Part shown: positions 22,148 to 50,725 of the stretch, piece after piece
Position numbering within the stretch: position 1 is the stretch's first letter
Layout of the letters: the number at the start of each line of letters is the position of its first letter
Source of the DNA: Ureibacillus manganicus DSM 26584
GTDB taxonomy: Bacteria > Bacillota > Bacilli > Bacillales_A > Planococcaceae
Direction: 5' to 3'
NCBI RefSeq assembly: GCF_000772945.1
Contig: NZ_JPVN01000004.1
Coordinates: 124,001 to 188,000 of the forward strand
DNA: 64,000 bases
The notes under the pieces: generated by a model
Told to the model about the DNA's origin: nothing
Databases searched by the model: none
Seen by the model: the letters and a program-made list of their open reading frames with translations, nothing else
Made by a program: the position numbers and the translations under genes

Positions 22148-22195
22148 ACTTCAATTACTTATAGTACGGTTCTCCTCACCATATTAACTGGTATT
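22148..22195 (+). repeat. att-like site 1 (left end of island)
   Basis: Core TTACTTATAGTACGGTTC with the TC centre at 22171-22172. It is a diverged copy of the rlmH 3'-end sequence; read leftward it would encode PYYK-stop. Its right arm is the least like the other sites. This is the leftmost copy I can recognise, so it is the best left boundary of the island. Confidence 0.65.
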
Positions 22196-22242
22196 TTTAT
22201 TTTGTTGATTAATCTTGTTCCAAGTTCACTAATCTATTTTTA

Positions 22243-23775
22243 TTAGTGAAGCTTGCACTGCTGCTGAGCCGACCGTCTCACATCAATCCCGTCGGCCACT
22301 CTCAGGTCTTCTCCGATGATATTTTCTACAATGTTATTCACCATGCTGAGGTTATCTCCTGCATTAATCATAATACCGTTGGCTGCATGTCGAATGACGT
22401 TGCACTCGATATTGATGCCTGTAGGAATGCCTTTACCACGTCCGTCAGTGCCACGGTCTTCACTGAGCTTGATAGACCAGAACCCCTCAGTCCCTCCAGT
22501 GATGTGGTTACCGTGTAACTTCGTGCCCGGAGCATTGCGTAGCTCTATACCTACCTTTGAATTATCCCCTGCCGTGATCCTATTGTTCTCTATGAGTGTG
22601 TCAGGAGTTCCCAGGATAACGAGTACTCCCTGACGGTTACCGATTAGATCGTTAGAGTGCACCCAATTTCCATGTCCTGAGGCATCGTGCTTGTTCTTGG
22701 ACCCACCGGAATTACCCAGCGCTATACCCGCCCGTTGCCCGCCGATGACTTTGTTATCCCGGACCTCGTTAAGGTATTCACCTTCGCCATGTAAGTCAAT
22801 GGCATCGAGATGGCTGCCAACAATGGTGTTCTCTGCTACAAGATTGTTATGTGTGGGGAACTGAAGTAGAATGGCATGTCGCAGATGCCTGCCATCGAAA
22901 GTATTGCCGATTACAACATTGTGCCGGGAATCGTTAGAGGCATCTGGGTCGTGCTGGTCCCTTGAGCCTTCAACAGCGATGCCGTACCCCTGTCCTCCTG
23001 GTCCAACTGCAGTAGCCTCACTTACGTAATTACCAGAGAGAGTCACTTCACGGCTAGCCTTAACGGAGATACCGTGGCGCTCGAATTTTCTGATGCCAAG
23101 GTTCTTTACCAAGATCCGAGAGCTAGCCTTGCCATCTCTGGCTCCTATGTGAATCCCATACATCGGGCCACCACCCGCCTCACCATAGTCAGGGTCCTCG
23201 CCTAGTGGACCCTCATAACGAGAGGTGATTGTAAAGTCAGCGACAATGACGTCGTGAACTCCAGAACCACGGATCACCCGGCTGTCATCCTCGCCATCAA
23301 AAGAGGTCAGTAACACTGTTCTCTCTTGTCCCTCGCCGCGTATATCCACACCACTACGCAACACGATATTTGCTGACTCATCGTCCGGGTCAGTTGTACG
23401 TAAGTCATATGTACCAGCCGGCATTACTACCTCGTCACCAGGTTCAGCTGCATCTAGGGCCGCCCGTATGGCTACTGCATCGTCGTTTGAGTCCGGATCA
23501 GGATCTGCCCCAAAGTCAGTGATATCCAAGGTCCTGCCTGTCGCCGTACCTGGCGTCGGCACCTCAATCTGGATCCCGGACCTATCCACCAACCCCGGGA
23601 CCTGCCAGTCGCCGGGCTTAGACGGAGCAGGTCCTACATTTTCCTTGCTCTCGACCGACCCGTCAGATTCCTCGTTGCATGCGGCCAAGAGGACCACCAG
23701 GCCAAGGACTACCCACCACCAATGCGTCAGACCTCTTAGGCTACTCCGAATGGATTCCTTCATTACACTTCTCAC
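22243..23775 (-). CDS. Right-handed beta-helix lipoprotein (pectate-lyase-like)
   Basis: A 510-residue exported protein. The N-terminus has a membrane segment ending in lipobox LAAC, then a Pro/Ser-rich linker. The domain opens with DITDFGADPDPDSNDDAVAIRAALDAA, the start of pectate-lyase_3-type beta-helices, followed by repeated Asn-rich turns (VIGNTF, VAENTIVG, IENNRI). Probably a polysaccharide lyase or glycan binder on the cell surface; no catalytic residues can be named. DNA is near 50% GC against about 35% around it. It lies 160 bases after the GH3 gene, same strand. Confidence 0.75.
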   Translation of the reverse strand: MRSVMKESIRSSLRGLTHWWWVVLGLVVLLAACNEESDGSVESKENVGPAPSKPGDWQVPGLVDRSGIQIEVPTPGTATGRTLDITDFGADPDPDSNDDAVAIRAALDAAEPGDEVVMPAGTYDLRTTDPDDESANIVLRSGVDIRGEGQERTVLLTSFDGEDDSRVIRGSGVHDVIVADFTITSRYEGPLGEDPDYGEAGGGPMYGIHIGARDGKASSRILVKNLGIRKFERHGISVKASREVTLSGNYVSEATAVGPGGQGYGIAVEGSRDQHDPDASNDSRHNVVIGNTFDGRHLRHAILLQFPTHNNLVAENTIVGSHLDAIDLHGEGEYLNEVRDNKVIGGQRAGIALGNSGGSKNKHDASGHGNWVHSNDLIGNRQGVLVILGTPDTLIENNRITAGDNSKVGIELRNAPGTKLHGNHITGGTEGFWSIKLSEDRGTDGRGKGIPTGINIECNVIRHAANGIMINAGDNLSMVNNIVENIIGEDLRVADGIDVRRSAQQQCKLH

Positions 23776-23936
23776 GTCCTTTCTAAGACTCCTTTCGTTT
23801 CACCGCCCATGTGAGGCGATGAGAAAGGCGATGAGCGCACGCGCTCACCGCCCTTGGGATGTTCCGACAATCCTTACCGGGTCGCCGACTTATCTCATGG
23901 CAAGGGGTCTACCTATTATTGTTCCCCTTGTCATTG

Positions 23937-26402
23937 TTAATATCTTTGGCTGTTGCCATTGTTGTTACCTTTACCTTTATTGTTGCCTTTGTTGTTTTCT
24001 TTGCCGTTGTCCTTGTTAAGTTTGAAGTTCAACGGGATGTCTTTTTCCAATGGTGTGTCTGCTGAGGAACCACCGACATGTACGCGGTATTTCCCGTTAG
24101 CGGTAGACCACTCGCCATCAGCCCAGTTCGCCAAATTGTCCGGTTCTTCCGGAACAAAATAAGAGAATGGGTGGTTAGAGTCAGCATGGTTAATACGTAC
24201 AGTCAAGCGTTCACTCTCACCAGGCTCAAGATCAACCTTCTCAAAATTGACAAGTCGCTTAGTCGGCTGCCCTGCCTCGTTTGGCAATGTCAGGTAGACT
24301 TGTGCTGCTTCTTTACCGGCAACGTCACCCGTGTTCGTAATCGTGAAGGACACGTCAATGCCGGACAATGAGCCTTTACCTTGGACCTTCTTCACCTTTA
24401 GGTCGTCATACGCAAAAGTAGTGTACGACAAACCGTATCCAAATGGGAAGATCGGCTCTACGTCGTTTGCTTCATACCAGCGATAGCCCATCTTTAGACC
24501 CTCAGTGTACTTAGCAATTAGTTGGTCAGAACCATTACCGTATGGACCTGGGCCACCTGGCTTGCCAGTATCTTGACGTGTTCCAGGGTACTGCTTCTCA
24601 GTCGCAAAAGCTGCTTCACGCTCTGTCGCACCCCACGTCATAGGTAGCTTTCCAGAAGGATTTACTTTACCGTATAGCAGGTTGGCAACGGCATTGCCAT
24701 CTTCCATACCTGCGTACCAAGCTTCAAGCACTGCAGGTACCTCATCTAACCACGGCATTAGCACCGTACCAGAAGTCTTCAGGATTACTGCAGTGTTCTC
24801 CGCGTTTGCTTCCAAGACTGCATCAATTAGTGGCTCCTGCTCCACCCAGTCCTCTTTATCTGGGTTAGTGTTAAGGTCAATCGCCGGGAAGCCAAGGGTA
24901 TCACGGTCTACAGTCTCATGTGGGTTGTCACCAACCATTAGCAGTACTACGTCGGACTCAGCGGCTAACTTAGCTGCTGCCTCTGGGTCACGGCCATCGT
25001 TATATGTTACTTCAGTATCATAGCCAAGCTCCTCGATGACATTCTCAAGTCCTTCTTGCGGAGTGACCGTGTAAGGAGCATTTACGTTTTCGTTATTGTC
25101 TCGAACAGATCGCGGAGACATCTTTGCTTCACCAGCGAACCATTCAACGCCGATTAGTGCGATAGTCTCCGGCTCGCCGTCCAATGGTAGGAAATCGTTA
25201 TCGTTCTTCAATAGTACAGCGCCTTCTTCAGCCATTTTCAGTGCGCTAGCACCGTTAGCAATCGGATCGACGATTTCAGGCATGAACTTGTCGTAAGGCT
25301 CATCCATGTGGCCGTACTCGATCATCTTGATGTAACGTGGACGAAGTAGATTGTCGATGTCGTCCTCAGTTACCTCACCCGAGTCAAGGGCATCCTCGAT
25401 TTTTTCCTCAGTGAAGAACTGTGGTGCCCAGTCAAGCTCTACATTCGTTCCCGCCTTTATAGCAGCAACGGTGTCGTGAATTGCGCGACGGTCACTCATA
25501 ACGTAACCTTCAAAGCCCCAGTTGTCTCTCAAGGCGTCTTGTAGTAATTCAGAGCTGTCACAAGCATAAGTGCCGTTAACATCTGGGAATGAACACATTA
25601 CTGACGCTGGATCAGCATCCTTAACAGTCATTTCGAAAGGCAGCATGTATAGCTCGTTCATTGCCTGTGATGGAACTTGGACACCCATTGTCCAACGCTC
25701 AGTCTCCTGCTCATTGCCTGCCAAGTGCTTAAGCTGGGCCTGAACTCCTTGTTCCTGGATACCTTTAACCTGTTCAGTCGCCAATGTACCAGTCAAGTAT
25801 GGGTCCTCACTGAAATATTCATAGTTACGACCACCGTACGGGTGACGAATTAAGTTCATGCCTGGCCCAAGCAACACGTGATGCGCGAAGGCACGAGTCT
25901 CTTCGCCGAGAATTCGGCCTGCCTCATAGTTCAGCTCGCGATCGAAAGTCGCTGCCAGCGCAGGTGTTGATGGAAGTCCTGTTGCTTCTGGGTCATTGCC
26001 ACAAGATCCACCTTTTACGCCCGTACCACCATTAGTCATACGGATTGTTGGGATACCCAATTCCTCAATCCCACGGATCTGACGCCCAGTGTCCTGCCAC
26101 TCACAACCAGGCAAAGTACCCTCTGGCGCGAATTCACCATTCATGTACTTACTTGTACCGCCCCTTTTAATAACAACCGGCTCACCGGTGTCGTTCTCAT
26201 TAAAGCGTGAAATGGCGATTTGCTGGATTTTTTGTTCCATCGTCATCTCGTCGAGAAGCATCTCAGTGCGCTCCTCAGCAGACAGCTTAGTGTTCATCCA
26301 GGGTTTGTTCACTTCCGAATCTCCATTCATCGCATTCGCAGGCTGTACTAACGATGACATGGAGATGGTAGCTGTCAATAAAATTGTACTAATTCTCTTC
26401 AT
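23937..26402 (-). CDS. Secreted glycoside hydrolase family 3 enzyme
   Basis: An 821-residue protein with a signal peptide ending at PANA, the GH3 N-domain with KHLAGNEQETER and the nucleophile Asp in GYVMSDRRA, the GH3 C-domain (VLLKNDNDFLPL, GKVNPSGKLPMTW, FPFGYGLSYTTF) and a fibronectin-III-like end. The tail is an odd Asn/Gly/Lys run (GKENNKGNNKGKG). The residue after the nucleophile is Arg where Trp is usual. Likely a beta-glucosidase or related exo-enzyme acting outside the cell. GC content near half marks it as recently acquired. Confidence 0.9.
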   Translation of the reverse strand: MKRISTILLTATISMSSLVQPANAMNGDSEVNKPWMNTKLSAEERTEMLLDEMTMEQKIQQIAISRFNENDTGEPVVIKRGGTSKYMNGEFAPEGTLPGCEWQDTGRQIRGIEELGIPTIRMTNGGTGVKGGSCGNDPEATGLPSTPALAATFDRELNYEAGRILGEETRAFAHHVLLGPGMNLIRHPYGGRNYEYFSEDPYLTGTLATEQVKGIQEQGVQAQLKHLAGNEQETERWTMGVQVPSQAMNELYMLPFEMTVKDADPASVMCSFPDVNGTYACDSSELLQDALRDNWGFEGYVMSDRRAIHDTVAAIKAGTNVELDWAPQFFTEEKIEDALDSGEVTEDDIDNLLRPRYIKMIEYGHMDEPYDKFMPEIVDPIANGASALKMAEEGAVLLKNDNDFLPLDGEPETIALIGVEWFAGEAKMSPRSVRDNNENVNAPYTVTPQEGLENVIEELGYDTEVTYNDGRDPEAAAKLAAESDVVLLMVGDNPHETVDRDTLGFPAIDLNTNPDKEDWVEQEPLIDAVLEANAENTAVILKTSGTVLMPWLDEVPAVLEAWYAGMEDGNAVANLLYGKVNPSGKLPMTWGATEREAAFATEKQYPGTRQDTGKPGGPGPYGNGSDQLIAKYTEGLKMGYRWYEANDVEPIFPFGYGLSYTTFAYDDLKVKKVQGKGSLSGIDVSFTITNTGDVAGKEAAQVYLTLPNEAGQPTKRLVNFEKVDLEPGESERLTVRINHADSNHPFSYFVPEEPDNLANWADGEWSTANGKYRVHVGGSSADTPLEKDIPLNFKLNKDNGKENNKGNNKGKGNNNGNSQRY

Positions 26403-26758
26403 CTTATTTTCTCCCTTACTATCAATTTACGGTTTTTAGTATAGAGAAAAACTATTACCCTGGTATTACCCTAGTATAACGATTAATTACAGATCAGTAA
26501 CAAAGACCAAGTGATGAGTATTACCCCTAAAGTCATTAAAATTGTATACAATTTCTTTCGCAATCAATGATTAGACATATTAAACAAGTGAATTTCAATT
26601 AGAAATATACTTAATTTTCTTTACATTACTGAAATAGAATAGAAGTACTTTATTATTAATTTCTATAAATTTTTCCATTTATTTTTATTTACACATAAAA
26701 AGACATCTATAGGGAACAGTAATTATGGGTATGACCTTTAATTAAGGAGATGAATTAG
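26403..26758. other. Intergenic stretch with return to low GC
   Basis: Base composition falls back to AT-rich immediately upstream of the GH3 start. It separates the GH3 gene from the broken Ohr gene. No gene or strong hairpin seen. Confidence 0.5.
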
Positions 26759-27190
26759 ATGTCTGAAATTCTTTATAGTTCGACTGTAACAACTTATGGG
26801 GGCGTAGAGGGAAAAGTCCAATCATCAGATGGTGTCATTAATATGGCCACCGCTATACCAGGAACTAATAGAGACGAGGAATTAGAGCAAGTTACAAATC
26901 CTGAACAATAGTTCGCAGCAGCATACGCAACTTGTTTTGATAGTGCTTTACAAATAGTAGCGAATAAAGAAAAATTGAATTTAGAATCACAAGTCACAGC
27001 CAATGTTAAATTGTTAGAAGATGAGAAAGATGGATATAAATTATCCATTAATTTGAAAATTAAAGGCAAAAATATTGATAACAACCAATTAGACAATCTA
27101 ATCAAAAAAGCCAACCAAATTTGGCCATATTCAGAAGAAAAAAGAAAAAATATGGAATTAACTCTCGAAATAGATTCAATAAGCCACTAA
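26759..27190 (+). pseudogene. Ohr/OsmC-family gene with an in-frame stop
   Basis: The ATG follows AAGGAGA. The frame reads MSEILYSSTVTTYGG through VTNPEQ, then TAG at 26909-26911, then FAAAYATCFDSALQ to the end. In intact organic hydroperoxide resistance proteins the stop position is Leu (NPEQLFAA), so TTG to TAG explains it. The peroxidatic Cys (ATCF) remains, but the second Cys of the VCPYS motif is Trp (IWPYS). It is therefore doubly impaired. Lies at the right end of module 1. Confidence 0.85.
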
Positions 27191-27208
27191 ATAAGGATAG
27201 ACTTTCAA

Positions 27209-27240
27209 AAAGAGAACGCAGAATACAGCGTTCTCTTTGG
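27209..27240 (+). terminator. Terminator of the Ohr pseudogene
   Basis: AAAGAGAACGC (27209-27219) pairs with GCGTTCTCTTT (27228-27238). Att-like site 2 begins about 20 bases later. Confidence 0.85.
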
Positions 27241-27252
27241 TGTTTTTAAGAA

Positions 27253-27300
27253 TTTGCACTTACTTATGGTACGGCTCAACGTAATATATTTAAATGCAGT
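27253..27300 (+). repeat. att-like site 2
   Basis: TTACTTATGGTACGGCTC, centre TC at 27276-27277, right arm AACGTAATATATTTAAATG. The distal box (ACTGCATTTA on the opposite strand) sits at the same distance from the centre as in the other sites. Read leftward it encodes PYHK-stop. Confidence 0.75.
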
Positions 27301-27309
27301 TTGTATATT

Positions 27310-28194
27310 TCAAACTTTATGTATCCTTTCTACAAACTTTCCAGCAGCACGGGATAAAGGAACATTTTTCAAGTAACATATACCAATACTCCTTTTTGGA
27401 ATTTCCTCTTCTAGCTTTAACTCGTATAACTCTCCACTTTCTAAATAATCACTTGCAAACTCTTTTACTACACAAGAAATACCTAAATTTATTTTTGTGA
27501 ATTCTAAAACTAAATCATGTGACCCAAGTTCAAACGCAGGCGAAATTTGAAAACCTCTTTTTTTAAAGAAATTTTCTACATATACTCGTGAGTTGGACTT
27601 TCTTTCTAAAAAAATTAATGGCATTTTCATTAAATACTCAAAACTGATCGGTTTATCGATCATTCTTTTAAATTTATCTCCACAGACAAAAATATCATGA
27701 ACCTCCTTACAAGGTATGATTTGAAGGTTCTCGTCATGGATTGGCAAATTACATAGCCCCACATCTGCCTTTCCGGATTTAATAAAATCACAAATTTCTG
27801 ATGTAGTTCCATTTAGAATTTTCAATCTAATTCCGGGGTATCTTGCATGAAACTCTTCCAAATAAGGCAACAAAAAGTAACGAGAGACTGTATCTCCAAC
27901 CGCGATACGTAATTGTCCAGTATTTAATTTATTAACTTCTAATATCTTTTCTTCTGCAACGTCGATCATTCCTAATGCAGAATTAATATATTCATTTAAT
28001 AGTTTTCCTTCATTAGTTAATATTATGCCCTTAGATGTTCGATAAAAAAGTTGTATTTCTAATTCATTTTCAAGCTTCATAATGGCTTGACTGACCGCAG
28101 ATTGTGTCATATATAATTCCTGTGCTGCTTTAGAAAAACTTTTATTACCACTAACTACGTTAAATATACGATATAAATCCAAGTTCCCAATCAT
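27310..28194 (-). CDS. LysR-family transcriptional regulator
   Basis: A 294-residue regulator. The N-terminal winged helix-turn-helix has NKSFSKAAQELYMTQSAVSQAIMKLE; the rest is the effector-binding domain. It is divergent from the CofE-like gene with a 136-base shared promoter region, the classic LysR-target layout, so it probably controls that gene. Both lie in module 2 between att-like sites 2 and 3. Confidence 0.9.
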   Translation of the reverse strand: MIGNLDLYRIFNVVSGNKSFSKAAQELYMTQSAVSQAIMKLENELEIQLFYRTSKGIILTNEGKLLNEYINSALGMIDVAEEKILEVNKLNTGQLRIAVGDTVSRYFLLPYLEEFHARYPGIRLKILNGTTSEICDFIKSGKADVGLCNLPIHDENLQIIPCKEVHDIFVCGDKFKRMIDKPISFEYLMKMPLIFLERKSNSRVYVENFFKKRGFQISPAFELGSHDLVLEFTKINLGISCVVKEFASDYLESGELYELKLEEEIPKRSIGICYLKNVPLSRAAGKFVERIHKV

Positions 28195-28330
28195 ATAAGT
28201 TCTCCTTATATCACATATTATAAATATTAATTTTACTTATATCATCTTTGGAGGGTATAGTAAACTTATAATGTTTAAACAGACTTAAGTATTTCTACAT
28301 AAATTATACTCACTTAGAGGAGAGATTAAA

Positions 28331-29521
28331 TTGACAAGAGCCGTTGGTACAGTAGTCCGCGGACTTCGCGGTCCTATCATCAACAATGGTGATAATATAG
28401 AACAAATCGTAGTTGATACGGTATTAAATGCAGCAAAAACTGAGGGATTTTCAATTGAGGATCGTGATATTGTTACAATCACTGAATCCATTGTTGCTCG
28501 TGCACAAGGAAACTATGCAACTATTGATGATATAGCAACAGACGTTAAAGCAAAATTTGGCGATGAAACTGTTGGTGTTATTTTTCCAATTCTTAGTCGT
28601 AATCGATTTGCAAACTGCTTACGTGGGATTGCTAAAGGATCAAAGCGTATTGTATTAATGTTAAGTTACCCATCTGATGAAGTAGGTAATCACCTAGTAG
28701 ATATCGATGAGCTAGATGTTAAAGGCGTCAATCCTTGGACAGATGTATTGACTGAGACTCAATTCCGTGAATATTTCGGATATAACAAACATACATTCAC
28801 TGGTGTTGATTACATCGATTATTATAAATCTTTAGTTGAAGCTGAAGGCGCAACTTGTGAAGTGATTTTCTCAAACAATCCTAAAACTATTCTTGACTAT
28901 ACAAAGAGCGTTTTAACATGTGATATTCACTCACGTTTTAGAACAAAACGTATTTTAACAAACAACGGTGCTGAAAAAGTATATGGACTTGATAATATTC
29001 TTTCCCAATCAATTAATGGTAGTGGATTTAATGAAGAATATGGTCTACTAGGTTCAAATAAAGCAACGGAAGACAGCGTAAAGTTATTCCCTAACAACTG
29101 TCAACCAATCGTTGATGGGATTCAAGCAAAACTCAAAGAAGTAACAGGTAAAACTGTTGAAGTAATGGTTTATGGAGATGGGGCATTTAAAGATCCAGTA
29201 GGTAAGATATGGGAGCTTGCGGACCCTGTTGTATCTCCTGCTTATACACAAGGACTTGACGGTACTCCAAACGAAGTGAAATTAAAATACTTGGCAGATA
29301 ACAATTTCTCTCATCTTCGTGGAGAAGATCTAAAACAAGCTATTTCTGAATTTATCCAAAACAAAGACGAAGACCTAGTTGGTTCGATGGAATCACAAGG
29401 TACTACGCCACGTAGACTAACTGATCTAATTGGATCATTATCTGATTTAACTTCTGGTAGTGGGGACAAAGGTACACCAATGGTCTATATTCAAGGATAC
29501 TTTGATAACTATACAAAATAA
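28331..29521 (+). CDS. Coenzyme F420-0:L-glutamate ligase (CofE)-like protein
   Basis: A 396-residue protein resembling the F420_ligase domain: an RDIVTITESIVARAQGNY segment early and MVYGDGAFKDPVGKIWELADPVV in the middle, seen in CofE-related proteins. Most Firmicutes lack F420, so the true substrate is probably another compound accepting glutamate or a similar amide bond. TTG start with AGAGGAGAG 7 bases upstream. A LysR gene is divergent to it. The family call is moderately sure, the reaction not. Confidence 0.7.
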   Translation: MTRAVGTVVRGLRGPIINNGDNIEQIVVDTVLNAAKTEGFSIEDRDIVTITESIVARAQGNYATIDDIATDVKAKFGDETVGVIFPILSRNRFANCLRGIAKGSKRIVLMLSYPSDEVGNHLVDIDELDVKGVNPWTDVLTETQFREYFGYNKHTFTGVDYIDYYKSLVEAEGATCEVIFSNNPKTILDYTKSVLTCDIHSRFRTKRILTNNGAEKVYGLDNILSQSINGSGFNEEYGLLGSNKATEDSVKLFPNNCQPIVDGIQAKLKEVTGKTVEVMVYGDGAFKDPVGKIWELADPVVSPAYTQGLDGTPNEVKLKYLADNNFSHLRGEDLKQAISEFIQNKDEDLVGSMESQGTTPRRLTDLIGSLSDLTSGSGDKGTPMVYIQGYFDNYTK

Positions 29522-29645
29522 GATAAAAACTACAGCTGAAAATTTTTTTCTAACAATTGAGGGCGAGTTCAAATCAATCAACTAGACGTTGATATTTTCT
29601 ATATAATAACTTAAGAAATATTTGTTAACCTTGATATAACAACAT

Positions 29646-29695
29646 AAAAACACATTGGAAACAACAAATAAATTCCAATGTGTTTTTTATTTTTA
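29646..29695 (+). terminator. Terminator of the CofE-like gene
   Basis: Perfect 15-bp stem AAAAACACATTGGAA (29646-29660) / TTCCAATGTGTTTTT (29673-29687), with T-rich tail. It ends 15 bases before att-like site 3. Confidence 0.9.
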
Positions 29696-29702
29696 TTGTA
29701 TA

Positions 29703-29750
29703 TCTTCACTTACTTTTGATACGGTATTCGGTAACTCGAGTATGTGAGGT
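29703..29750 (+). repeat. att-like site 3 (AT centre)
   Basis: TTACTTTTGATACGGTATTC, then GGTAACTCGAGTATGTGAGG. The symmetric alignment puts AT, not TC, at the centre (29726-29727). The right-arm distal box TATGTGAGGT is well kept. Read leftward it would encode PYQK-stop. Confidence 0.7.
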
Positions 29751-29818
29751 TTTTATGTTTTCATAAAACGCAGTTTAATCTAAATTAGATGCCTCGTTAT
29801 TTCTTTTGAAATTTTCTT

Positions 29819-40845: not shown

Positions 40846-40889
40846 TTTATTAGCTTTTTTATCAATTTATAAGAGCTGAAAATCTATGA

Positions 40890-41903: not shown

Positions 41904-41987
41904 CTAATCTGCCACTTTAGTTCAGTAACTTCAACAAAAAAGGACTTTAATCCTTCTTGGATTATCGGCTACTATAGTTGAAGTAGC
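41899..41987. repeat. Gene-linked repeat family B, copy 4
   Basis: CTTCAACTAATCTGCCACTT, TAGTTCAGTAACTTCAACAA, the same TTAATCC-TTCTT-GGATTA hairpin as copy 2, then CTATAGTTGAAG. It abuts the stop codon of the Nudix gene. Confidence 0.7.
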
Positions 41988-41989
41988 TA

Positions 41990-42409: not shown

Positions 42410-42430
42410 ACCAATCCCACCCTCACTTTT

Positions 42431-42465
42431 TTAAACTTCTTCAACTCTTCTTCCCCGTTGGTTTA
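42431..42465. repeat. Gene-linked repeat family B, degenerate copy 5
   Basis: CTTCAACTCTTCTTCCCCGT then TGGTTTAATAAG keeps the outer inverted arms in weakened form. It closes the row on the upstream side of the Nudix gene. Confidence 0.4.
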
Positions 42466-42829
42466 ATAAGAATATATTTTAATACCATATTAAAATTTTA
42501 ACGTAATTTCTCCATTTTTTTTACTCCTACTTTATTCAATCGGTCTGTTGCTCACTAATTTGCACCTATTTAGCACTAAAATTAGCAAGACCACATAAAT
42601 TTATGAAGTCTTTCTAAAAGCGGTGTTAAAAGATATGTTAAATTATAGATAATTCATGATGAATTAAAATGAAGCGTGCTTATTTTCCTAATACTTATAA
42701 ATCATTTAACTAATTCACTGCTAATTTGTTCATTAATATTACTTTTCTCATTTTCCTCACCTCAAATGAATACTTTTCTCACAAAATACTAAAATACAAT
42801 ACATCCACAATTACAAAGGAGGTGTATCC
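42466..42829. other. Intergenic stretch, no gene seen
   Basis: AT-rich spacer before the rightward HTH gene; it should contain that gene's promoter. Nothing else recognised. Confidence 0.45.
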
Positions 42830-43324
42830 ATGAATAAAGACAAGTTCCTCACAACAAATAGCAAAAATCGTGTAGCCATCGTAAACGAGTTGCTAAAGAG
42901 GGAAGGTTTTGATTTACAAAGAGTAGCGGATGCTCTTGAAATTAACTATTCTACCTTTACGAAACTGATGCAAGAAGACGATTATGTTTATATTAAACGG
43001 GAAAACCAGTATTATAAATTTGTTCGTGATGAAGGACAGATATCTACTATTTCTAACCAAAGTAATTCCGAAATGGATTATATTAAAAAGAATTTTCCCC
43101 TTTTGAAAAGCATAATAGAAAGATATAAACACAATGACGACTTCATCATTGACAAGCGTATATTCCGATCTACCTCTAAAATCTCCAGTAAAAACTTCCG
43201 TATGCCAGACGACCTCTACCAAAACTTTGTTGCTACTTGTGAAAACGAGTTCCCCCATTTGAAAATCCAAGACATTATTGCCCAACTTCTTCTTGATTTC
43301 ACAGACAAATATTCCAACAAATAA
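42830..43324 (+). CDS. Putative DNA-binding protein (HTH plus RHH-like)
   Basis: A 164-residue protein. Residues 15-45 look like a helix-turn-helix (NRVAIVNELLKREGFDLQRVADALEINYSTFTKLM). The C-terminal part (RMPDDLYQNFVATCENEFP and following) has the ribbon-helix-helix-like look of plasmid regulators and MobC-type accessory proteins. AAAGGAGGTG 7 bases upstream of the ATG. Alone on the plus strand in the recombinase module; probably regulates or assists element mobility. Inference only. Confidence 0.6.
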   Translation: MNKDKFLTTNSKNRVAIVNELLKREGFDLQRVADALEINYSTFTKLMQEDDYVYIKRENQYYKFVRDEGQISTISNQSNSEMDYIKKNFPLLKSIIERYKHNDDFIIDKRIFRSTSKISSKNFRMPDDLYQNFVATCENEFPHLKIQDIIAQLLLDFTDKYSNK

Positions 43325-43436
43325 AAATGCACAAAAGACAAGGCAGTTCCATTATTAAAACTCGATAAGGACTGCCATAATTACATCCCTTCTATAAAAA
43401 AAGACAGCTCTAATCTAATTAGAAACTGCCTTTCCT

Positions 43437-43717
43437 TCATATCTTGTTGTAAGTTCTTGTTGTTAAAAGTTCTTGGACAATCTCTTCACCAAGTATCGTT
43501 ATCCGTTTTAATTTTATATTCTTAACTATCCACTCACTCTTAATTTTAACAAAATTATTTCCATAACCCTTAGTACGTCGAATCTCTACCGTATTTATCC
43601 AATTATCTTATAAATTGTACCATAATCCAGCTCGATACCACAAAATTCTCTTCTAATAACAATATAAAAAGTCATCTGCATCTTCTTGCCGTATTCGGTA
43701 ACTTTCCTCGGTTTCAT
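43437..43717 (-). pseudogene. Possible frameshifted small gene
   Basis: From ATG (minus 43717, GAAGG upstream) the frame reads MKPRKVTEYGKKMQMTFYIV to YKIIG-stop. A second frame overlapping at the break continues with WINTVEIRRTKGYGNNFVKI to TTRTYNKI-stop at 43437. Joined by one shift near 43600 they give about 93 residues. No family recognised; the reading depends on one inferred frameshift. Confidence 0.35.
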
Positions 43718-43757
43718 ATAAACCTTCAATCATCTTCGGATGTTAGTAATATTGCCT

Positions 43758-44669
43758 TTAATCCTTCCTACTTTTAACCCATTGATCTGCTACATATGCT
43801 ATTTCTTTTCTTCCATATGTGTAGGGGCAGAAATACAAAATAAACTTTTCAAATATTTCTGCAATCATATCAAAAGTATCTTCTAAGGAATCCAACGGTT
43901 TAAAGTATACACCAATCTTTCTATGTTCAAATTGTATGTCTGGATGCACCTCATTACGAATTAACTCCCTATGTTTTAAAAATAATCTGTACCTATCAAT
44001 TCTATGTTTTTCGAAATAAAGCTCTACAAATGCACGTGACTTTACATTCTTAGAGGAGCATCTAAATAGCAAACCATTCTGACCTGAGCCGACTGTTAAC
44101 GTTAAATCGTTTAAATTCATTTTTTTGTTGTAGTGAAAGTTTAGATAGAAAGGCATTCTCTTGCGAAGTACAGCTAACATTGCCCTTTTTATATCATCTG
44201 TTCGTGAAAGATCTAATGGTGGCTCCAATGTTAATGCATGGCCAGCGTGTAAAGGATGTATATTTTTGATTGAATAATCGACAGTTAGAAGCTGTCTGAT
44301 TTTTATTAATTGCTTCATATGTTCATACACTTCAAGCTTATACATTTGGTTCAATTTTTCTAACATATCAATAGCTAAGGGATTAATTGAAACTGCAAAA
44401 AAATCTATATAGTGTAATTGTTTGCTCTTTATCCAATCTGTAAGATCCCGAAGTATTACCTCATCAAATGATAATGCCATCCATACAATAACCGCCTCTT
44501 GATTAGCCAGCATCATCTTTTTGATACGCTCCATATAAGTACGGTTCGTATGGTTTTGTTCCAGTGAGATATTATTTAATTCAAATCCTAATATCTCCTG
44601 CCATTGTTGATAAAAATCCTTTAGGTAAATTGTAAAAATCGACTCCTTGTTGCTCCCCTTTTTACTCAT
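43758..44669 (-). CDS. Unidentified 303-residue module-7 protein
   Basis: A soluble protein rich in His, Lys and aromatic residues, without membrane segments or a motif I know (landmarks: IHPLHAGHALTLEPPLDLSR, KIGVYFKPLDSLEDTFDM). It has AGGAGGCAATAGG as ribosome site. It lies between the XRE regulator and the frameshifted ORF, all leftward. The setting suggests an element maintenance or replication role, but nothing in the sequence proves it. Confidence 0.65.
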   Translation of the reverse strand: MSKKGSNKESIFTIYLKDFYQQWQEILGFELNNISLEQNHTNRTYMERIKKMMLANQEAVIVWMALSFDEVILRDLTDWIKSKQLHYIDFFAVSINPLAIDMLEKLNQMYKLEVYEHMKQLIKIRQLLTVDYSIKNIHPLHAGHALTLEPPLDLSRTDDIKRAMLAVLRKRMPFYLNFHYNKKMNLNDLTLTVGSGQNGLLFRCSSKNVKSRAFVELYFEKHRIDRYRLFLKHRELIRNEVHPDIQFEHRKIGVYFKPLDSLEDTFDMIAEIFEKFILYFCPYTYGRKEIAYVADQWVKSRKD

Positions 44670-44728
44670 ATCCTATTGCCTCCTACATTCGCTGTGGTTT
44701 TTTGTCATTTATTTTTTACAAAAGAAAA

Positions 44729-44765
44729 GCACCTACCATCCAGAGACGGTAAGTGCTGTTTTTAA
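44729..44765. terminator. Terminator-like hairpin after the XRE gene
   Basis: AGCACCTACC pairs with GGTAAGTGCT (one mismatch) with T-runs on both strands. It separates the XRE gene from the 303-residue gene. Confidence 0.7.
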
Positions 44766-45004
44766 TGTATATAGTTGAATTTTATAGATAGAATTTGCCA
44801 TTGGAATCAAACCTTTATAATAATACTGTCCTAACTTTATAGCAAAGGGTTCTGTATTGTCAATAATTCATATAACATATATACAATTTATTAATAATCA
44901 ATTTTTTGGCACATATTATGTATTTCTTCTATATGTAATCAAAATAATATTCATAACCTATATATATATATAGGTAGAGAAGGAGAAAATCTCTCCTCCT
45001 AACC

Positions 45005-45439
45005 TTACATTTCTTCTTTAAGCTCTATAATTAATTCGCCAACCCTTTTTAAATCTTCCAGCATTGTATCTGCTACCCATTCGATTGCTAAAACAGTAGT
45101 ACAAATTTTTAGCAGTGAATCTTTCGTATTTGCACTTAGATTTATCCCTTCCCACTCAATTTCATTATTGAAGAAAAGTTCTTCAAGTGAAGCTTCTCTG
45201 CCTGTAGAATCAAACTTTGTGCCGAGGAAAGTGTCAACTCCTGTTCCTAATGCCACCGCAATATCCTCTAAAATATTGATGCTTGGATTTTTTCTGTGAC
45301 CTGATTCGAGACGATTCAAGTACGATGGGGTGACGTTACACAACCTCGCCATTTTTTGAAGTGAATACCCTTTGGATTGCCTTAGATGTTTTAACAGCTT
45401 TCCAAAATCATTGCCAAGTTCTCGTTTTCCTTTAGTCAT
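45005..45439 (-). CDS. XRE-family transcriptional regulator
   Basis: A 144-residue protein: helix-turn-helix at residues 12-65 (LLKHLRQSKGYSLQKMARLCNVTPSYLNRLESGHRKNPS), then an acidic helical tail of about 75 residues, probably for dimerising or sensing. AAAGGAGAGG before the ATG. As the only XRE regulator in the recombinase module it is the natural candidate to control the recombinase operon, perhaps through the inverted repeat at 47215-47247. Confidence 0.85.
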   Translation of the reverse strand: MTKGKRELGNDFGKLLKHLRQSKGYSLQKMARLCNVTPSYLNRLESGHRKNPSINILEDIAVALGTGVDTFLGTKFDSTGREASLEELFFNNEIEWEGINLSANTKDSLLKICTTVLAIEWVADTMLEDLKRVGELIIELKEEM

Positions 45440-45571
45440 TCAAATCCTCTCCTTTTAATCTTTCCATTCAAGGAACCCTGTTTTAATTGATCGAGTTGAT
45501 CTTTATATCATAGTTAGGAAGAGGAATTTGATAACATAAGAAAGGTACTAATAGTAATTATAGGCATAGAA

Positions 45572-45681
45572 AAAGAACCACCCGAAGCCTGGTTAGCGGA
45601 GTGGTTCTAATGGATCTACTTATTGCCGAACCGAACTTCAAGTTCGGTAATGGTACACGATACTCGCAATATCGTGCTTAT
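45572..45681. repeat. Triple-hairpin cluster downstream of the Rep-like gene
   Basis: Three inverted repeats in a row: AGAACCAC / GTGGTTCT (45572-45609), ACCGAACTT / AAGTTCGGT (about 45635-45654) and CACGATA / TATCGTG (about 45658-45678). Stacked hairpins beside a rolling-circle-type initiator gene resemble single-strand origins or transfer origins. Function inferred from position. Confidence 0.5.
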
Positions 45682-45750
45682 CATTATTATAACCATTATT
45701 AACCACATATCAACTGTATTTCTATTCGAATTTAAACATTCTAAATTTAT

Positions 45751-46740
45751 TTACCATAAAAATTTATCAAGAGGATTGCTTAGAGTATTTGGTGCTTTTG
45801 GGTAATTTTTTGGAATGGGGATTGGATTGATGCCAAGTTGACTCAACATTTCCAAGCGGTTTCTAAATGTGGCTTTTGTCATTGATTTCAGCGGGGTATC
45901 AATACTGTGAGAAGATACTTGTTTCAAAAATACAATCAGCTTATCTTTATTGGAATCAGAGAGGGAGGAGTTACGTATACGTTTTCTTGCTTCATCTAAC
46001 TTATTAAATTCTCCAGGATGGTAAATGGGGGACATATATTTGCGGAAATAACCTCGATAGACTTCTTCTTTCATATATTCTTTTAATTTCTTAGGTCGAC
46101 AATTCCCTTTGTCTTGTCGAGCCATATAATTAATATGATCTTGTAGAATTCGTACTTCAAACCTTAGTACGTTTTTTTCATACTCTTGTATCTCTTCTTT
46201 TTTAAATAATCGTTCTTCTTCTTTTGAATAAACTACAGCTTGTACCGATTTTGACGAATGGTAAACAGTCGTTTCATATTTTTGAAAAACACCTTCAGCA
46301 TCAAGCTTACCTATATACTTTTTTTGATACCTATGTGATTTAGTAAGCTTCTGATACAAGTGGAGCAGTATATCTCTGTGGAGTTTTTCCTCTACAACTA
46401 AATCGTATCGGTAATCAATTCTTTGCAGAATATGATGTCTGAAATGCAAAAAATGTTTAAAGAGAATCCAAAGAATATTCGTTATCTCTTGTTCTAACGA
46501 AATATAGTCATCTTCCGTAATGTCAAACTTACCAAGAAGGAGAATTGCATCTATGAACATATATAACTTCCACTGTCCATTGCCTTTATTTGAAATTTGA
46601 AGCGTAACTCCTTTAAACTTACCACCGTAGTAATTAGCAAAGTAGTCATTCAGTTGCGTGTAAATAATATTAAACCTTTTTTGCAAATCCATAACTTCAT
46701 AGTATTCAATAGGAAAATACAGCTTGATTGTATGGATCAT
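45751..46740 (-). CDS. Replication initiator-like protein (phage gene II/X type)
   Basis: A 329-residue basic protein. RIDYRYDLVVEEKLHRDILL, the segment YETTVYHSSKSVQAVVYSKEEER and VLRFEVRILQDHI follow the pattern of filamentous-phage gene II/X and related plasmid replication proteins (Phage_CRI type). Such proteins nick one strand to start rolling-circle replication. The nicking Tyr cannot be assigned with certainty. It is divergent from the recombinase operon and flanked by hairpins and a tandem repeat. Confidence 0.6.
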   Translation of the reverse strand: MIHTIKLYFPIEYYEVMDLQKRFNIIYTQLNDYFANYYGGKFKGVTLQISNKGNGQWKLYMFIDAILLLGKFDITEDDYISLEQEITNILWILFKHFLHFRHHILQRIDYRYDLVVEEKLHRDILLHLYQKLTKSHRYQKKYIGKLDAEGVFQKYETTVYHSSKSVQAVVYSKEEERLFKKEEIQEYEKNVLRFEVRILQDHINYMARQDKGNCRPKKLKEYMKEEVYRGYFRKYMSPIYHPGEFNKLDEARKRIRNSSLSDSNKDKLIVFLKQVSSHSIDTPLKSMTKATFRNRLEMLSQLGINPIPIPKNYPKAPNTLSNPLDKFLW

Positions 46741-46910
46741 TTATACCACCTCCAGATTGACCTTGGGAGGCTGGAAATCTTTATACATCAAAGGTTTATT
46801 GTTATATTTTTGCTCCCAGCCCCATTATATTTATCCTTCCTTGCCCCCAAAATTAGATGGGCTACTGACAATATAGCGAAGAAGTCAAGTTGAAATAAAT
46901 AGGTTTTGTG

Positions 46911-46930
46911 TTCGAGCTGGTTCGAGCTGG
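46911..46930 (+). repeat. 10-bp exact tandem repeat
   Basis: TTCGAGCTGG occurs twice head to tail, 170 bases upstream of the Rep-like gene. It could be an iteron-like binding site. Confidence 0.5.
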
Positions 46931-47038
46931 TTATTCCATTAATTGTTGTAACATTCAATTAACTATTGACATTAGGCAAAATATTTCTTATTATAGTTTA
47001 TAGAAATTTTTATATAACACATATTTTGATAGATTATA

Positions 47039-47158
47039 GACTGTTTTACTTAGATACATGAACAATCCAATAGGTATAGTTGTTTCAAGGGGGATTATGC
47101 CTTCTTGCTTAACTACTTATTGCGATTTTTTGTATATCTAAGTAAAGCAGTCTTTTTT
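47039..47158. ncRNA. Long nested hairpin, possible structured RNA or origin
   Basis: Outer arms begin GACTGTTTTACTTAGATA (47039 on) and end TATCTAAGTAAAGCAGTC (to 47152). Inside, AATAGGTATAGTTG pairs imperfectly with AACTACTTATT and CAAGG with CCTTCTTG; the tip is GGGATTATG. Six Ts follow the right arm. Either a transcript with a terminator end (small RNA or leader) or a cruciform used as origin. It lies between the divergent Rep-like and recombinase operons. Confidence 0.5.
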
Positions 47159-47214
47159 GTTGTTTTATATGCATTCTTGCTTCTTTTCAAATAATATCCC
47201 CCCGATTTTTACAT

Positions 47215-47247
47215 AGGTTAATGACACTTTCCTCACTTCATTAACCT
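47215..47247. promoter_or_regulatory. Inverted repeat, likely operator of the recombinase operon
   Basis: Perfect 10-bp arms AGGTTAATGA (47215-47224) and TCATTAACCT (47238-47247), 13 bases apart, ending 39 bases before the first ORF of the recombinase operon. The spacing suits a dimeric helix-turn-helix regulator such as the XRE protein. Confidence 0.6.
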
Positions 47248-47286
47248 AAATAACCTCAAAATTCCACTACGAAAGGAAGATCCCCA

Positions 47287-47460
47287 ATGAAAGAATCCCC
47301 TACTTTAAGTTTTAATGAAGAAATTGAAGAACAATTATTGATTGGACCTGAGCTGGAAAAATATAATGCTCGAAAGTTTCTTAACTTACTGTCCGATCTG
47401 ATTGTCAAATATGAAACTACTATTTACGACAAATTTAAGGAAAGCAGATTAGGAGCGTGA
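47287..47460 (+). CDS. 57-residue protein leading the recombinase operon
   Basis: A small acidic protein (MKESPTLSFNEEIEEQLLIG start, KFKESRLGA end) with GAAAGGAAG before the ATG. Its stop is 7 bases before the first recombinase start, so the genes are translationally linked. I recognise no family. Its place makes it a candidate directionality factor or recombinase partner, but there is no direct sequence evidence for that. Confidence 0.6.
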   Translation: MKESPTLSFNEEIEEQLLIGPELEKYNARKFLNLLSDLIVKYETTIYDKFKESRLGA

Positions 47461-47467
47461 TTGATTT

Positions 47468-48937
47468 ATGCGTGCTGTTGGTTACGTTCGAGTAAGTACC
47501 GAAAAACAATTAGACAATACTTCTATTGCAAAACAAAAAGAGGAAATTGAAAAATACTGCAAAAATAATGATTTACAACTCGTTCGCATCTTTGATGAAG
47601 GGGCAAAATCGGCTGAATCATTTAAAAATCGACCTGAGTTTAAAGAGTTGTACTCATTTGTTTTTGATAAACAAAATCGAATAGATTACGTTGTCGTTTA
47701 TGATTCTGACCGTATATCCAGGGACAATTTAGAATCCTTATATATTTATAAACGACTAACGCAAGCCGAAAAACATCTTATTTGTATAGCTGACAATATT
47801 GATACAAGAGATCCAAGAGCAAAAATACTTTATCAAATCATGTCATTAGTTGCAGAGTTAGAAAGAGATATGATCATATTCCGAACAAACTCTGGTATGG
47901 AGAAAAGAGCCTCTGAAGGAGAATTTAATGGAGGCGTCATTTATGGATATATATCGAAGAATAAGAAGCTTAAAGTTGTCCCTGAAGAAGCAAAAGTCGT
48001 AAATTATATATTTGAAAAGTATGCAATCGACCAGTGGGGTTATAAAAAGATTGCTTCAAACTTAAACACTTTAGGTGTCACTACAAAGAAAAATAATTTT
48101 TGGTCAATTACTTCCGTAAAAACGATACTAAGCAACCCCATTTATATAGGCAAAATAAAATGGCGTGGTGAACTGAGAGATGGAAAGCATGCCCCTATTG
48201 TTGACCTAAAGTTATGGGAGAAAACACAAGAAGTATTGAAAGTAAGTAGTTATAGACAAGAGAAAGTTCATCCTGGAAGCTTCCCCTTATCAGGCTTACT
48301 AAAATGCCCAGAATGCGGCTCAGCCATGTTACAAGGAAATAGCAGTCCAAAATACAAATACTATCAATGTTCAAGAAACAAAAACAGCGGTAGTAAGGCG
48401 TGTTCCTCAAACCTTGTAAAAAAGGATTATGCTGAAGATTATGTATTCAACCAAGTGTTTATAGCGTTACAAAAATACAACATTATAGAACCTATAACCA
48501 GTATGCTACACGCATACGCTATGAGTGAAATAGAGCCATTGGAAATGAAATTAAAGACGTATGAAGTTGAGTTAGATGAATTAAAAACAAAGAGAAAAGA
48601 ACTTATAAATTGGAAGTTGAAAGATATTATTTCAGAAGCGATTTTGAAGGAGGAAATGGTAGATTTACAAGAGGAAGAGAAAACGATTTTAAGTCGAATT
48701 GAAAATTTACAGCACCTCATTAAACTCAGAGATAAAACCTTTTTAGCTGATATTATTTCAACATCACTACACGATTTAAAAGCCTTTTTCGATATGATCG
48801 AAGATGATGACAAAAAGGAATTGCTTCGTTCTCTCATTGAAGAGATTCATGTAAATCCAGGGAAGACTACTAAGGATAGAACTATAAAAGAAATCATTTA
48901 TAAATTTGATTTAAAATATTTGAATCAACTGAACTAA
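47468..48937 (+). CDS. Large serine recombinase 1 (Ccr-like)
   Basis: A 489-residue site-specific recombinase. Catalytic domain: YVRVSTEKQ with Ser10, DSDRISRDNL (active-site Arg), LVAELERDMI helix E. The recombinase domain follows (about 160-265: GYKKIASNLNTLGV), then a zinc ribbon (LKCPECGSAM ... YYQCSRN ... ACSS) and a coiled coil (about 350-430). Between staphylococcal CcrA and CcrB in length, and placed like them as the first of a pair beside rlmH. Ccr identity is by architecture and location, not by alignment. Confidence 0.9.
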   Translation: MRAVGYVRVSTEKQLDNTSIAKQKEEIEKYCKNNDLQLVRIFDEGAKSAESFKNRPEFKELYSFVFDKQNRIDYVVVYDSDRISRDNLESLYIYKRLTQAEKHLICIADNIDTRDPRAKILYQIMSLVAELERDMIIFRTNSGMEKRASEGEFNGGVIYGYISKNKKLKVVPEEAKVVNYIFEKYAIDQWGYKKIASNLNTLGVTTKKNNFWSITSVKTILSNPIYIGKIKWRGELRDGKHAPIVDLKLWEKTQEVLKVSSYRQEKVHPGSFPLSGLLKCPECGSAMLQGNSSPKYKYYQCSRNKNSGSKACSSNLVKKDYAEDYVFNQVFIALQKYNIIEPITSMLHAYAMSEIEPLEMKLKTYEVELDELKTKRKELINWKLKDIISEAILKEEMVDLQEEEKTILSRIENLQHLIKLRDKTFLADIISTSLHDLKAFFDMIEDDDKKELLRSLIEEIHVNPGKTTKDRTIKEIIYKFDLKYLNQLN

Positions 48938-48966
48938 GAGAAGGGAAACATCCTTTCTCTTGTTTG
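48936..48966 (+). terminator. Weak hairpin between the two recombinase genes
   Basis: AAGAGAAGGG pairs with CCTTTCTCTT around a 6-base loop, followed by a T/G-rich tail. It could lower expression of the second recombinase. Confidence 0.45.
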
Positions 48967-49003
48967 TGTTTCATATTAAAATTACAAGGAAGGGAGGATT
49001 TTT

Positions 49004-50725
49004 ATGCATGAAATAAAACGTGTCGCAATTTACTGTAGGGTTTCTACCGAAGAGCAGGCAACGGAAGGATACAGCATAACTGCCCAATTACAAACATTAC
49101 GTCAATATACTCAATTATATGGTTGGGAGATTGCAGAGGAATATGTAGATGAGGGAATAAGCGGAAAGAACATAAGCGGTCGCCCTGCTATGCAAAAACT
49201 TATTTCAGATGTTGAAAAGGATAAATTTCAAGCTGTTCTTGTTTGGAAGATCTCACGCCTATCAAGAAATATGTTAGATACTCTCACTTTATTAGACAAA
49301 TTCGAAGATTATGGAGTAAAATTCATCTCTTACTCTGAAAACTTTGATACAGGCAGTCCAATTGGTCGTTTAGTTGTTCAGCTAATGGCTTCCATTGCGG
49401 AAATGGAGCGTAACACATTAGCAGAGAATGTTAAATTGGGAATGAAACAGCGAGCATTAGAAGGTTCATGGAATGGAGGCGTTGTATTCGGTTATGACAA
49501 TATTGAAAAAGAACTTGTAATTAATCAAAAAGAGGCAAAGATAGTGCAATTAATCTATCAGTTATATGCTAATGGTAAAGGTTTAAAGGCAATAGCAAAC
49601 CACCTAAACAAAGCAGGATATCGTACTAAACGAAATCGCCTTTTCTCCATCAATGGTATTGCTCAAATCTTAGATAATATTACTTACAACGGTAAAATCA
49701 GTTGGCTAAAGGTAGAAAATTGGGATACAAAACACAGGAGAGGTAAAAACCCTAATCCTATTATTGTCGAAGGACAGCATGAAGCCATTATTTCCGATGA
49801 ATTATGGAGTATGGTTCAAGCAAGGCGGAAAAGCAAGTCATTTAAACAAAGGCAATCCAATGAACCTTTTTTACTTAGCAGTCTTTTGCGTTGCCCTGAT
49901 TGTAGTCAAGGTATGGTTCCTGCAATTACAACACATAAACGAAAGGATGGAACAAAGAAGAAATACCGTTATTATGTGTGCTCTAACTTTCATAACAAAG
50001 GTTCATCAGCATGTAGAGCAAATTCAATAAAAGCTTATGTAGCAGAATACGAAGTAATTAATAAGATTGAGAAGATCCTTTCCAACCAAAAACAGTTATT
50101 CTCTACACTTCAATCTATAAATTCTACTTCGATTGAATCTTTAAACCAACTCAATACTGAATTGAAACAAGTAGAAAATCGCCTTTCTGAAATACAAGAG
50201 CTACAGAATCGTTACTTGGAAGCATTTGAGCGAAAGACCTTACCAATAGCAATCTTGCAAGAACGATTACAGCATGTCTCTAAAGAAAAAGCAGAGTTAG
50301 AACAAAGGCACAATGAAATCACTGGGCAATTAAGCTCGAATGATGCAAAAGTAATCCAACCAGAGCTTATCCAAAAGCTTTTAGACAAATTCCTTTTAGT
50401 CTATAAACAATCATCAAGAGAAAGACAAAAACATTTACTTCAACTCTTGCTTAACAAAATTACAGTAAAGCACCCAATTGGGCAATCACGAATGGTCGAT
50501 CAAGTTGAACTCGACTTTGACTTTTCAGAGGTCAATATTTCTAAGTCCTTCACACTTATCCACATGTTGTATCGAGAAACGGATAATGCAAATGGTTTTC
50601 CACAGCCAATACCCGCTTCCTACAACAAAATACCACCTTATTTACATCATTTTTTGCCTCTATTTATGATACGGTTCTCCCTTGATTATCCTAAAACTCC
50701 GATAGATTTGCTCAACCAAGACTAA
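49004..50725 (+). CDS. Large serine recombinase 2 (Ccr-like), reading through the att site
   Basis: A 573-residue recombinase: [10 protein letters not shown] (Ser14), [25 protein letters not shown], a recombinase domain with [16 protein letters not shown], zinc ribbon ([10 protein letters not shown] ... YYVCSNF ... ACRA) and a coiled coil (about 365-450). AAGGGAGG before ATG. The frame crosses the att centre in codon 558 and ends 66 bases inside rlmH on the opposite strand. In an excised circle of module 7 it would instead stop after codon 562. It is similar in size to CcrB and CcrC. Confidence 0.92.
50647..50684 (+). repeat. att-like site 8 (right end of island, in rlmH)
   Basis: TCATTTTTTGCCTCT then ATTTATGATACGGTTC, centre TC at 50676-50677. 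The right side is rlmH coding sequence (GEPYHK-stop on the minus strand). The left arm is the inverted partner of the right arm of site 7. The position in the last codons of rlmH is the SCC attachment place. Confidence 0.92.

Follow-up and report, generated by a model that had tools for sequence, protein, structure and literature searches.

A probable ordered array of mobile cassettes with serine-recombinase-type attachment sites at the rlmH 3' end of Ureibacillus manganicus

The 3' end of rlmH is the target of staphylococcal cassette chromosome (SCC) elements, for which composite and recombinase-free pseudo-SCC forms have been described in staphylococci (PMC10581047), as well as of composite SCC-like islands with pairs of a polymerase and a single-stranded DNA-binding protein (SSB) in Bacillota (PMC10061031) and of enterococcal cassette chromosomes (ECCs) of 21–78 kb, which have fewer than five attachment (att) sites per genome and more than one attR in 16 of 32 (PMC6222049). 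Here we describe the rlmH locus of Ureibacillus manganicus DSM 26584 in a window of 64,000 nucleotides (NZ_JPVN01000004.1, positions 124,001 to 188,000), where eight direct repeats of the rlmH end bound seven modules. The explanation that we judge best, and hold with fair confidence, is that mobile cassettes are lined up in order at the rlmH 3' end, which serves as the attachment site for a serine recombinase. It rests on the repeats and the direction in which they point, on cassettes that recur with sharp edges, on an empty-site-like junction in a relative, on shared end types and on a decay of the sites with their order. A preliminary description of this DNA had considered a many-cassette array of this type to be a non-standard finding in a spore-forming chromosome, but since SCC-like rlmH composites outside staphylococci have been published (PMC10061031, PMC6222049) the kind of island is already known. 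In the part of the literature covered, no description was found of arrays of small recombinase-free rlmH cassettes, of shared cassettes or of their ordering.

The locus shares with SCC elements the rlmH 3' end as target, the TATCATAA core, the GA centre, direct repeats, inverted terminal repeats and Ccr-type recombinases (PMC10581047). Insertion at the rlmH 3' end with flanking direct repeats was found, as were inverted repeats at element ends (in module 1, with matched ends across the intervals examined). No ccrA/ccrB or ccrC gene is recognised by curated model: CcrB is the top NCBIfam model for both large serine recombinases of module 1 (rec573 and rec489), whose scores (Table 1) both fall under its cut-off of 900 bits. 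A helicase or a polymerase-SSB (CcPol-MP) replication pair was not recognised by Pfam among ten module 1 open reading frames (ORFs), a scan from which overlapping and shorter ORFs were left out, and a probable rolling-circle-type replication protein (Rep) stands there instead. The window and its family further differ from SCC in that half of the intervals between sites are 2.5 kb or shorter, some are common to more than one genus and the sites decay in an order-dependent manner, and in a second chromosomal site and plasmid-borne cassettes. ECCs have in common with the array the rlmH target, att sites of about 50 bp with dyad symmetry and a conserved TATCATAA, variable cargo and multiple attR, but they are larger with few att sites, and the covered part of their description mentions no arrays of small cassettes (PMC6222049). 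The islands of PMC10061031 have the same target in Bacillales, large serine recombinases and some tandem composites, but they are defined by the replication pair that is unrecognised here, and the covered parts of that paper do not describe recombinase-free small cassettes, sharing or ordering.

The SCC likeness proposed in the preliminary description thus stands for the target, the GA centre and the best-scoring recombinase model, and the island is better called integron-like than a set of several tandem SCC elements. Integrons and integrase-free attC clusters have ordered small cassettes whose cargo is passive, near-palindromic junctions and, in some arrays, no matching recombinase, all of which the present locus resembles; their entry of cassettes at one end may also have a counterpart here. 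They differ from it in having a tyrosine rather than a serine recombinase, while here the sites of about 52 bp come from the end of a coding gene, the target gene is restored and no single dedicated integrase gene stands beside the array. Small cargo cassettes without a recombinase of their own are frequent among the intervals described below; the array recombinases belong to the serine resolvase family and no tyrosine IntI lies beside the array, no genome-wide search for IntI having been made. Although the junctions are near-palindromic, recombination of single-stranded hairpins as at attC forms no part of our proposal. Judged by those defining features that were tested, the array is neither an SCC nor an integron, though it would work like the latter.

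Because rlmH lies on the minus strand, the array extends leftward from it. With zero to three mismatches allowed, TTACTTATGATACGGTTC occurs eight times in the window, always on the plus strand and starting at the left coordinate of each junction site in Table 1, where 0.04 copies are expected by chance and none of 100 shuffles reached eight. The rightmost of these sites is the final bases of rlmH itself, and in rlmH sense all are variants of GAACCGTATCATAAGTAA. The eight direct repeats of the preliminary description are confirmed in this way; its module sizes agree with those measured between crossovers, and both of the large serine recombinases that it placed next to rlmH were found in module 1. 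Over the whole genome (4.05 Mb), 12 matches with at most three mismatches comprise the eight window sites and four on other contigs with two to three mismatches, and the reversed-pattern control for that search gave eight matches.

The aligned junctions share about 52 bp, extending beyond the 18-bp core, in the form AAAACCnCACTTA...TTACGGT-GA-ACCGTATCATAAGTAA-GTGnGGTTTT. They are near-palindromic and centred on GA, the central dinucleotide for CcrAB (PMC10581047), and the site at position 3901 of genome G011 is by eye a palindrome across 26 bp on either side of it. Symmetry within sites is no greater than in random site pairs (0.570 vs. 0.560), and the two ends of one cassette resemble each other more than permuted ends do (4.34 mismatches compared with 5.24, the lowest value in 500 permutations being 4.70). 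A 32-bp junction pattern with up to three mismatches was found in 166 of 261 genomes of the family, with no match to the reversed pattern across all 261, and the exact pattern occurs in 111 stretches of named genomes, some of which overlap one another; genera among the 80 of these that were listed are Lysinibacillus, Neobacillus, Peribacillus, Paenibacillus and several Clostridium. A profile scan of the 111 loci gave 179 sites, with at least two sites in 53 loci and mixed orientation in none. In 67 regions (1.56 Mb), which were partly picked for having sites and include four away from rlmH, two of them (G133b and G138b) turned by hand to the common orientation, all 218 sites found by profile point the same way, and reversed sequences gave none. 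Sites scoring below the profile threshold go undetected, and the site model, trained on sites of the RTGMGGTTTT end type, favours that end.

Outside the family, we sampled 40 of 116 genomes with an rlmH match, non-randomly (mostly in list order, with room on the contig required, and five giving less than 20 kb). At least one internal site was present in 17 of the 40, and the orientation count, rlmH ends included, was 45 plus and 1 minus with a control of 0. Since these islands are mostly single, multi-cassette arrays are mainly a trait of the family. Two opposite-strand matches, at three mismatches, lie near the array of G164. Several contigs of G151 hold GAACTTTATCCTAAGTAAATG seven times on both strands, plus a further copy that differs by a single change; it is probably an unrelated repeat or insertion sequence.

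The sites define 152 intervals, a set that excludes those with one undetected end (e.g., G007, G018 and G020). Their median length is 2.7 kb, 74 of the 152 measure 2.5 kb or less, and a recombinase related to rec573 or rec489 (E 1e-15) is present in 17. Cassette genes show a weak bias toward the rlmH sense (38 of 56, p = 0.01). In forty pairs of intervals, the two members coming from different genomes, the likeness covers more than 70% of both, and in 10 of the 40, from six different cassettes, the edges are sharp at the crossover on both sides (both inner edges at least 85% and both outer at most 70% identity, against a background of 56%). A 2188-bp cassette with a GAF-histidine kinase occupies different array positions in two genomes of genus g14 (G110, G149) and two of genus g13 (G133, G138), its copies being 97–99.7% identical. 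Module 2 of the window lies directly after rlmH in G002 as a 6.07-kb unit with 95.5% identity (inner edges 0.90/0.92, outer 0.53/0.57) and recurs partially in G081. Its ends bound intervals of 12.5 and 16.2 kb in G004 and G008, starting 17–31 kb from rlmH, where additional DNA separates the DJ-1 gene from the Ger genes, and in G005 its start follows rlmH while added sites and DNA split its genes. The module 2 proteins of G002, G004, G005 and G008 are 87–99% identical to those of the window; rlmH there is at 87–92%.

These recurrences bear on a more ordinary account, an SCC-type composite in which complete SCC-like elements inserted serially at rlmH and then lost their recombinase genes by deletion, leaving pseudo-SCC remnants and no dedicated cassette system. 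Composite and pseudo-SCC elements of staphylococci (PMC10581047), composite rlmH islands elsewhere in Bacillota (PMC10061031) and the multiple attR of half the ECCs (PMC6222049) give it precedent, and it would accommodate both the recombinase in 17 intervals and the stronger decay of distal sites. A recombinase-free unit of exactly 2188 bp with the same ends across two genera argues otherwise, because independent deletions would not give equal lengths along with both ends in common, and so a remnant origin is disfavoured. With the 74 short intervals and the recombinase-free, site-bounded units on plasmids (see below) also against it, we consider serial SCC insertion unlikely.

In G001, a close relative, rlmH runs straight into sequence matching what lies past the last site of the window (at 80% for about 120 bp from the site), an empty-site-like junction for the whole island. 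Other genes follow further on in G001, among them the module 6 pair (L113, 2843–5047 in rlmH-sense coordinates; F420-ligase family and LysR), which is 88.5% identical to the cassette form and is possibly the chromosomal source of a cassette. That this pair sits near rlmH with no detected flanking sites would fit a reading with no mobility at all, in which fixed core genes are simply separated by rlmH-like sequences that arose by chance or serve some function. Chance is ruled out, however, by the excess of repeats over expectation in the window, the empty reversed-pattern control in the family and the uniform orientation of the 218 sites, and the genomes examined do not hold the modules as fixed core genes: cassettes occur beside different neighbours and in different hosts, with identity dropping at the site. 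Neither of the outcomes that the preliminary description had named as refuting it came about. We therefore regard a locus without mobility as extremely improbable.

A search with the flanks fixed and the 16 core bases free gave 82 sites in 58 of the 261 genomes, and 58 of the 82 sites encode PYHK-stop. Changes in the core are synonymous in the rlmH frame in 67 of 110 cases, where 27% would be expected once transitions are weighted (p = 5e-14, with sites treated as independent). Because this exceeds expectation, the internal sites have the look of one-time ends of rlmH, unless an equal tolerance stems from the recombinase itself. Retention of EPYHK-stop falls with order from rlmH, from 35/46 through 26/34, 15/23 and 8/15 to 6/16 (within-genome permutation p = 0.0002; 134 sites in 46 genomes, 34 of which have at least two sites), and the same test gave p = 0.0002 for site score and p = 0.014 for core mismatches. 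A second sample was drawn from unexamined members of six genera (54 genomes, 53 with an rlmH match), chosen without regard to site count; 31 of the 53 have internal sites at up to three mismatches, and retention by order was 23/31, 8/15 and 1/6 (p = 0.034), in counts that omit the opposite-strand matches of G164 and any matches on other contigs or far from rlmH. As the EPYHK-stop coding fades with order from rlmH, it is probable that new cassettes enter beside rlmH and push older ones outward, as at integron attI. Partial second copies of rlmH with internal stops occur in G100 (G100:C1:3760166-3760546), G207 and G208, one of them inside an array near a site and the others elsewhere.

Sorted by their own ends, the 17 recombinase-bearing intervals comprise seven of type I (e.g., G093, G118 and G149), in which the recombinase is internal and the start is RTGMGGTTTT in six of seven, and a mixed group of ten with other ends, module 1 included, in which the recombinase match crosses the site in seven. 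The passive intervals carry the type I end at the start in 114 of 135 cases (background 0.9%) and at the finish in 112 of 135 (background 20%), for which reason the passive modules of the window are more likely to have been moved by a type I enzyme than by the module 1 pair. Type I recombinases score about 390–407 bits against rec573; the C44 recombinase of the window's genome was ruled out as one of them. A recombinase match at E 1e-40 is present in 33 of 151 genomes, and the site-rich G054, G081, G133 and G138 are not among these. The reading in which the module 1 pair moves all seven window modules has in its favour that this is the sole Ccr-like pair in the array and that every module has the same rlmH-like core, which is perhaps sufficient. 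The ends of module 1 (AGGCAAAA), however, differ from the start type of those 114 passive intervals, and module-1-type relatives in G123, G128 and G143 retain AGGCAAAA. Since its end repeats differ from the usual cassette type, the pair may not be the mover of modules 2–7, and we find it rather doubtful that it serves the whole array.

Sites also occur away from rlmH. In G128 (L099), G133 (L300) and G138 (L298), arrays or elements begin just behind a 345-aa gene, whose product in G128 starts MSKVIFFEVQGGSDKGPDGYR, either far from rlmH or on another contig. Six plasmid records have a junction match, and the three examined (Peribacillus, Heyndrickxia) hold seven sites, in one orientation per record and with a control of 0, which bound recombinase-free cassettes, one of them with a germinant-receptor operon. 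Plasmids are a plausible vehicle because site-bounded cassettes occur on them. The 24-kb Heyndrickxia oleronia plasmid (L369) has its 4-kb site-bounded germinant-receptor operon at 3988–8060, with a GerA only 36% identical to that of module 2.

In the mechanism that we propose for the cassette array, a cassette circle would carry the near-palindromic site of about 52 bp, and a Ccr-like large serine recombinase would join it to the rlmH end at the GA. Each insertion beside rlmH would bring in the final RlmH codons (PYHK-stop) afresh and so keep rlmH whole, and older cassettes would shift outward. Most cassettes would be cargo only and moved in trans, most likely by the recombinases of type I elements, which have the same ends, and module 1, which has end repeats of its own, two recombinases and a rolling-circle-type Rep, would stand apart as an element in its own right.

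Several points weigh against this explanation. The reversed-pattern control of the free-core search returned 13 matches against the 82 sites. Edges are sharp on both sides in only 10 of the 40 pairs, five of these 10 are one cassette and the threshold was chosen after seeing the data; three of the 40 have flanks in common too, as expected under common descent. The module 6 genes of G001 lie about 2.3 kb from rlmH with no flanking sites detected. Outside the family the order test had four second-order sites only (p = 0.69), too few for power, and distance in bases, unlike order, is uncorrelated with core mismatches (p = 0.49). The element types were named from their ends and the site model was trained on the type I end, so that the comparison of end types is more a description than a test. 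The window's genome yielded no type I recombinase, its two further recombinases reaching 225 and 148 bits against rec573, and for this reason the array may be immobile now. We also count against it that circle intermediates, GA as the crossover here, mobilisation in trans, entry at rlmH, excision and integration are steps we infer from sequence comparison.

More broadly, Bacillales and their relatives may have a serine-recombinase counterpart of integrons, with entry at the rlmH 3' end and at a site behind the 345-aa gene (three genomes), cassette sites of about 52 bp, chromosomal and plasmid-borne cassettes of one to a few genes, arrays that record the order of acquisition and a recombinase supplied in trans from type I elements; our belief in this wider proposal is evenly balanced with our doubt. 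To our knowledge integrons are rare in Gram-positive bacteria. If the proposal is true, the SCC-type element, known mainly for methicillin resistance, would be one branch of a general Gram-positive gene-capture system, and common soil spore-formers would hold a readable, roughly time-ordered record of gene acquisition. It would explain the single transfer of germinant receptors, sensor kinases and toxin-antitoxin pairs between genera and suggest a source of small SCC-type cargo units, and its predictions for orientation, coding constraint and order are checkable in any genome collection.

Table 1. Features of the rlmH locus in window coordinates, outward from rlmH.
Feature	Coordinates	Strand	Remarks
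rlmH	50660..51139	-	3' end, last codons E-P-Y-H-K-stop, is the integration site
Junction site 0 at rlmH, GAACCGTATCATAAATAG	50660..50677	-	presumed GA crossover 50677-50676
Module 1, 10.48 kb recombinase element	40199..50675	.	own terminal inverted repeat AGGCAAAAAATGA / TCATTTTTTGCCT
Large serine recombinase, 573 aa (rec573)	49004..50725	+	Pfam Resolvase/Recombinase/Zn_ribbon; best NCBIfam CcrB, 383 bits
Large serine recombinase, 489 aa (rec489)	47468..48937	+	best NCBIfam CcrB, 224 bits
Probable rolling-circle replication initiator (Rep)	45751..46740	-	Pfam Phage_CRI 22.0 bits (cut-off 21.7); PHROG replication protein
Helix-turn-helix (Xre-type) regulator	45005..45439	-	
Junction site 1	40183..40200	-	
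Module 2, 6.34 kb cassette	33856..40198	-	DJ-1/PfpI gene, GerA/GerB/GerC germinant-receptor operon, DUF4317
Junction site 2	33840..33857	-	
Module 3, 0.92 kb single-gene cassette	32936..33855	-	DeoD-type purine-nucleoside phosphorylase
Junction site 3	32920..32937	-	
Module 4, 1.93 kb single-gene cassette	31007..32935	-	PAS-GGDEF protein
Junction site 4	30991..31008	-	EPYHK-stop coding lost
Module 5, 1.28 kb single-gene cassette	29726..31006	-	beta-lactamase-superfamily serine hydrolase, PF00144
Junction site 5	29710..29727	-	EPYHK-stop coding lost
Module 6, 2.45 kb	27276..29725	-	F420-0:glutamate-ligase-family gene and LysR regulator
Junction site 6	27260..27277	-	
Module 7, 5.11 kb, 47% GC	22171..27275	-	GH3 glycosidase and beta-helix protein
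Junction site 7, distal array end	22155..22172	-	sequence resembling that beyond site 7 abuts rlmH directly in G001

The 3' end of rec573 crosses the GA crossover into antisense rlmH, so that its last 16 codons are antisense rlmH DNA (50678–50725), and the predicted circle of module 1 would give the protein a short tail, TVSI-stop. Seven elements like module 1, when joined in silico as circles, give TV(S/T/M)I-stop in five, PVSI-stop in one and a longer tail in one; integrated, all seven draw the tail from antisense rlmH or from other adjoining sequence, which lengthens the protein in every case. For the predicted fold of Rep (mean predicted local distance difference test, pLDDT, 72) the two best PDB matches are RepDE. 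Since these reach E 5e-5 with a TM-score of only about 0.3, a rolling-circle type is likely from the fold model, though short of proven.

Among the cargo genes, the serine hydrolase of module 5 reached the cut-off with none of the 25 NCBIfam matches listed. The other six modules have a GC content of 32–35%, well below that of module 7, whose genes (22243–26402; GH3 glycosidase and beta-helix protein) are at about 46–53% GC where the window elsewhere is at about 33%. This GC content, far above the rest of the window, suggests a distant donor for the module 7 genes.

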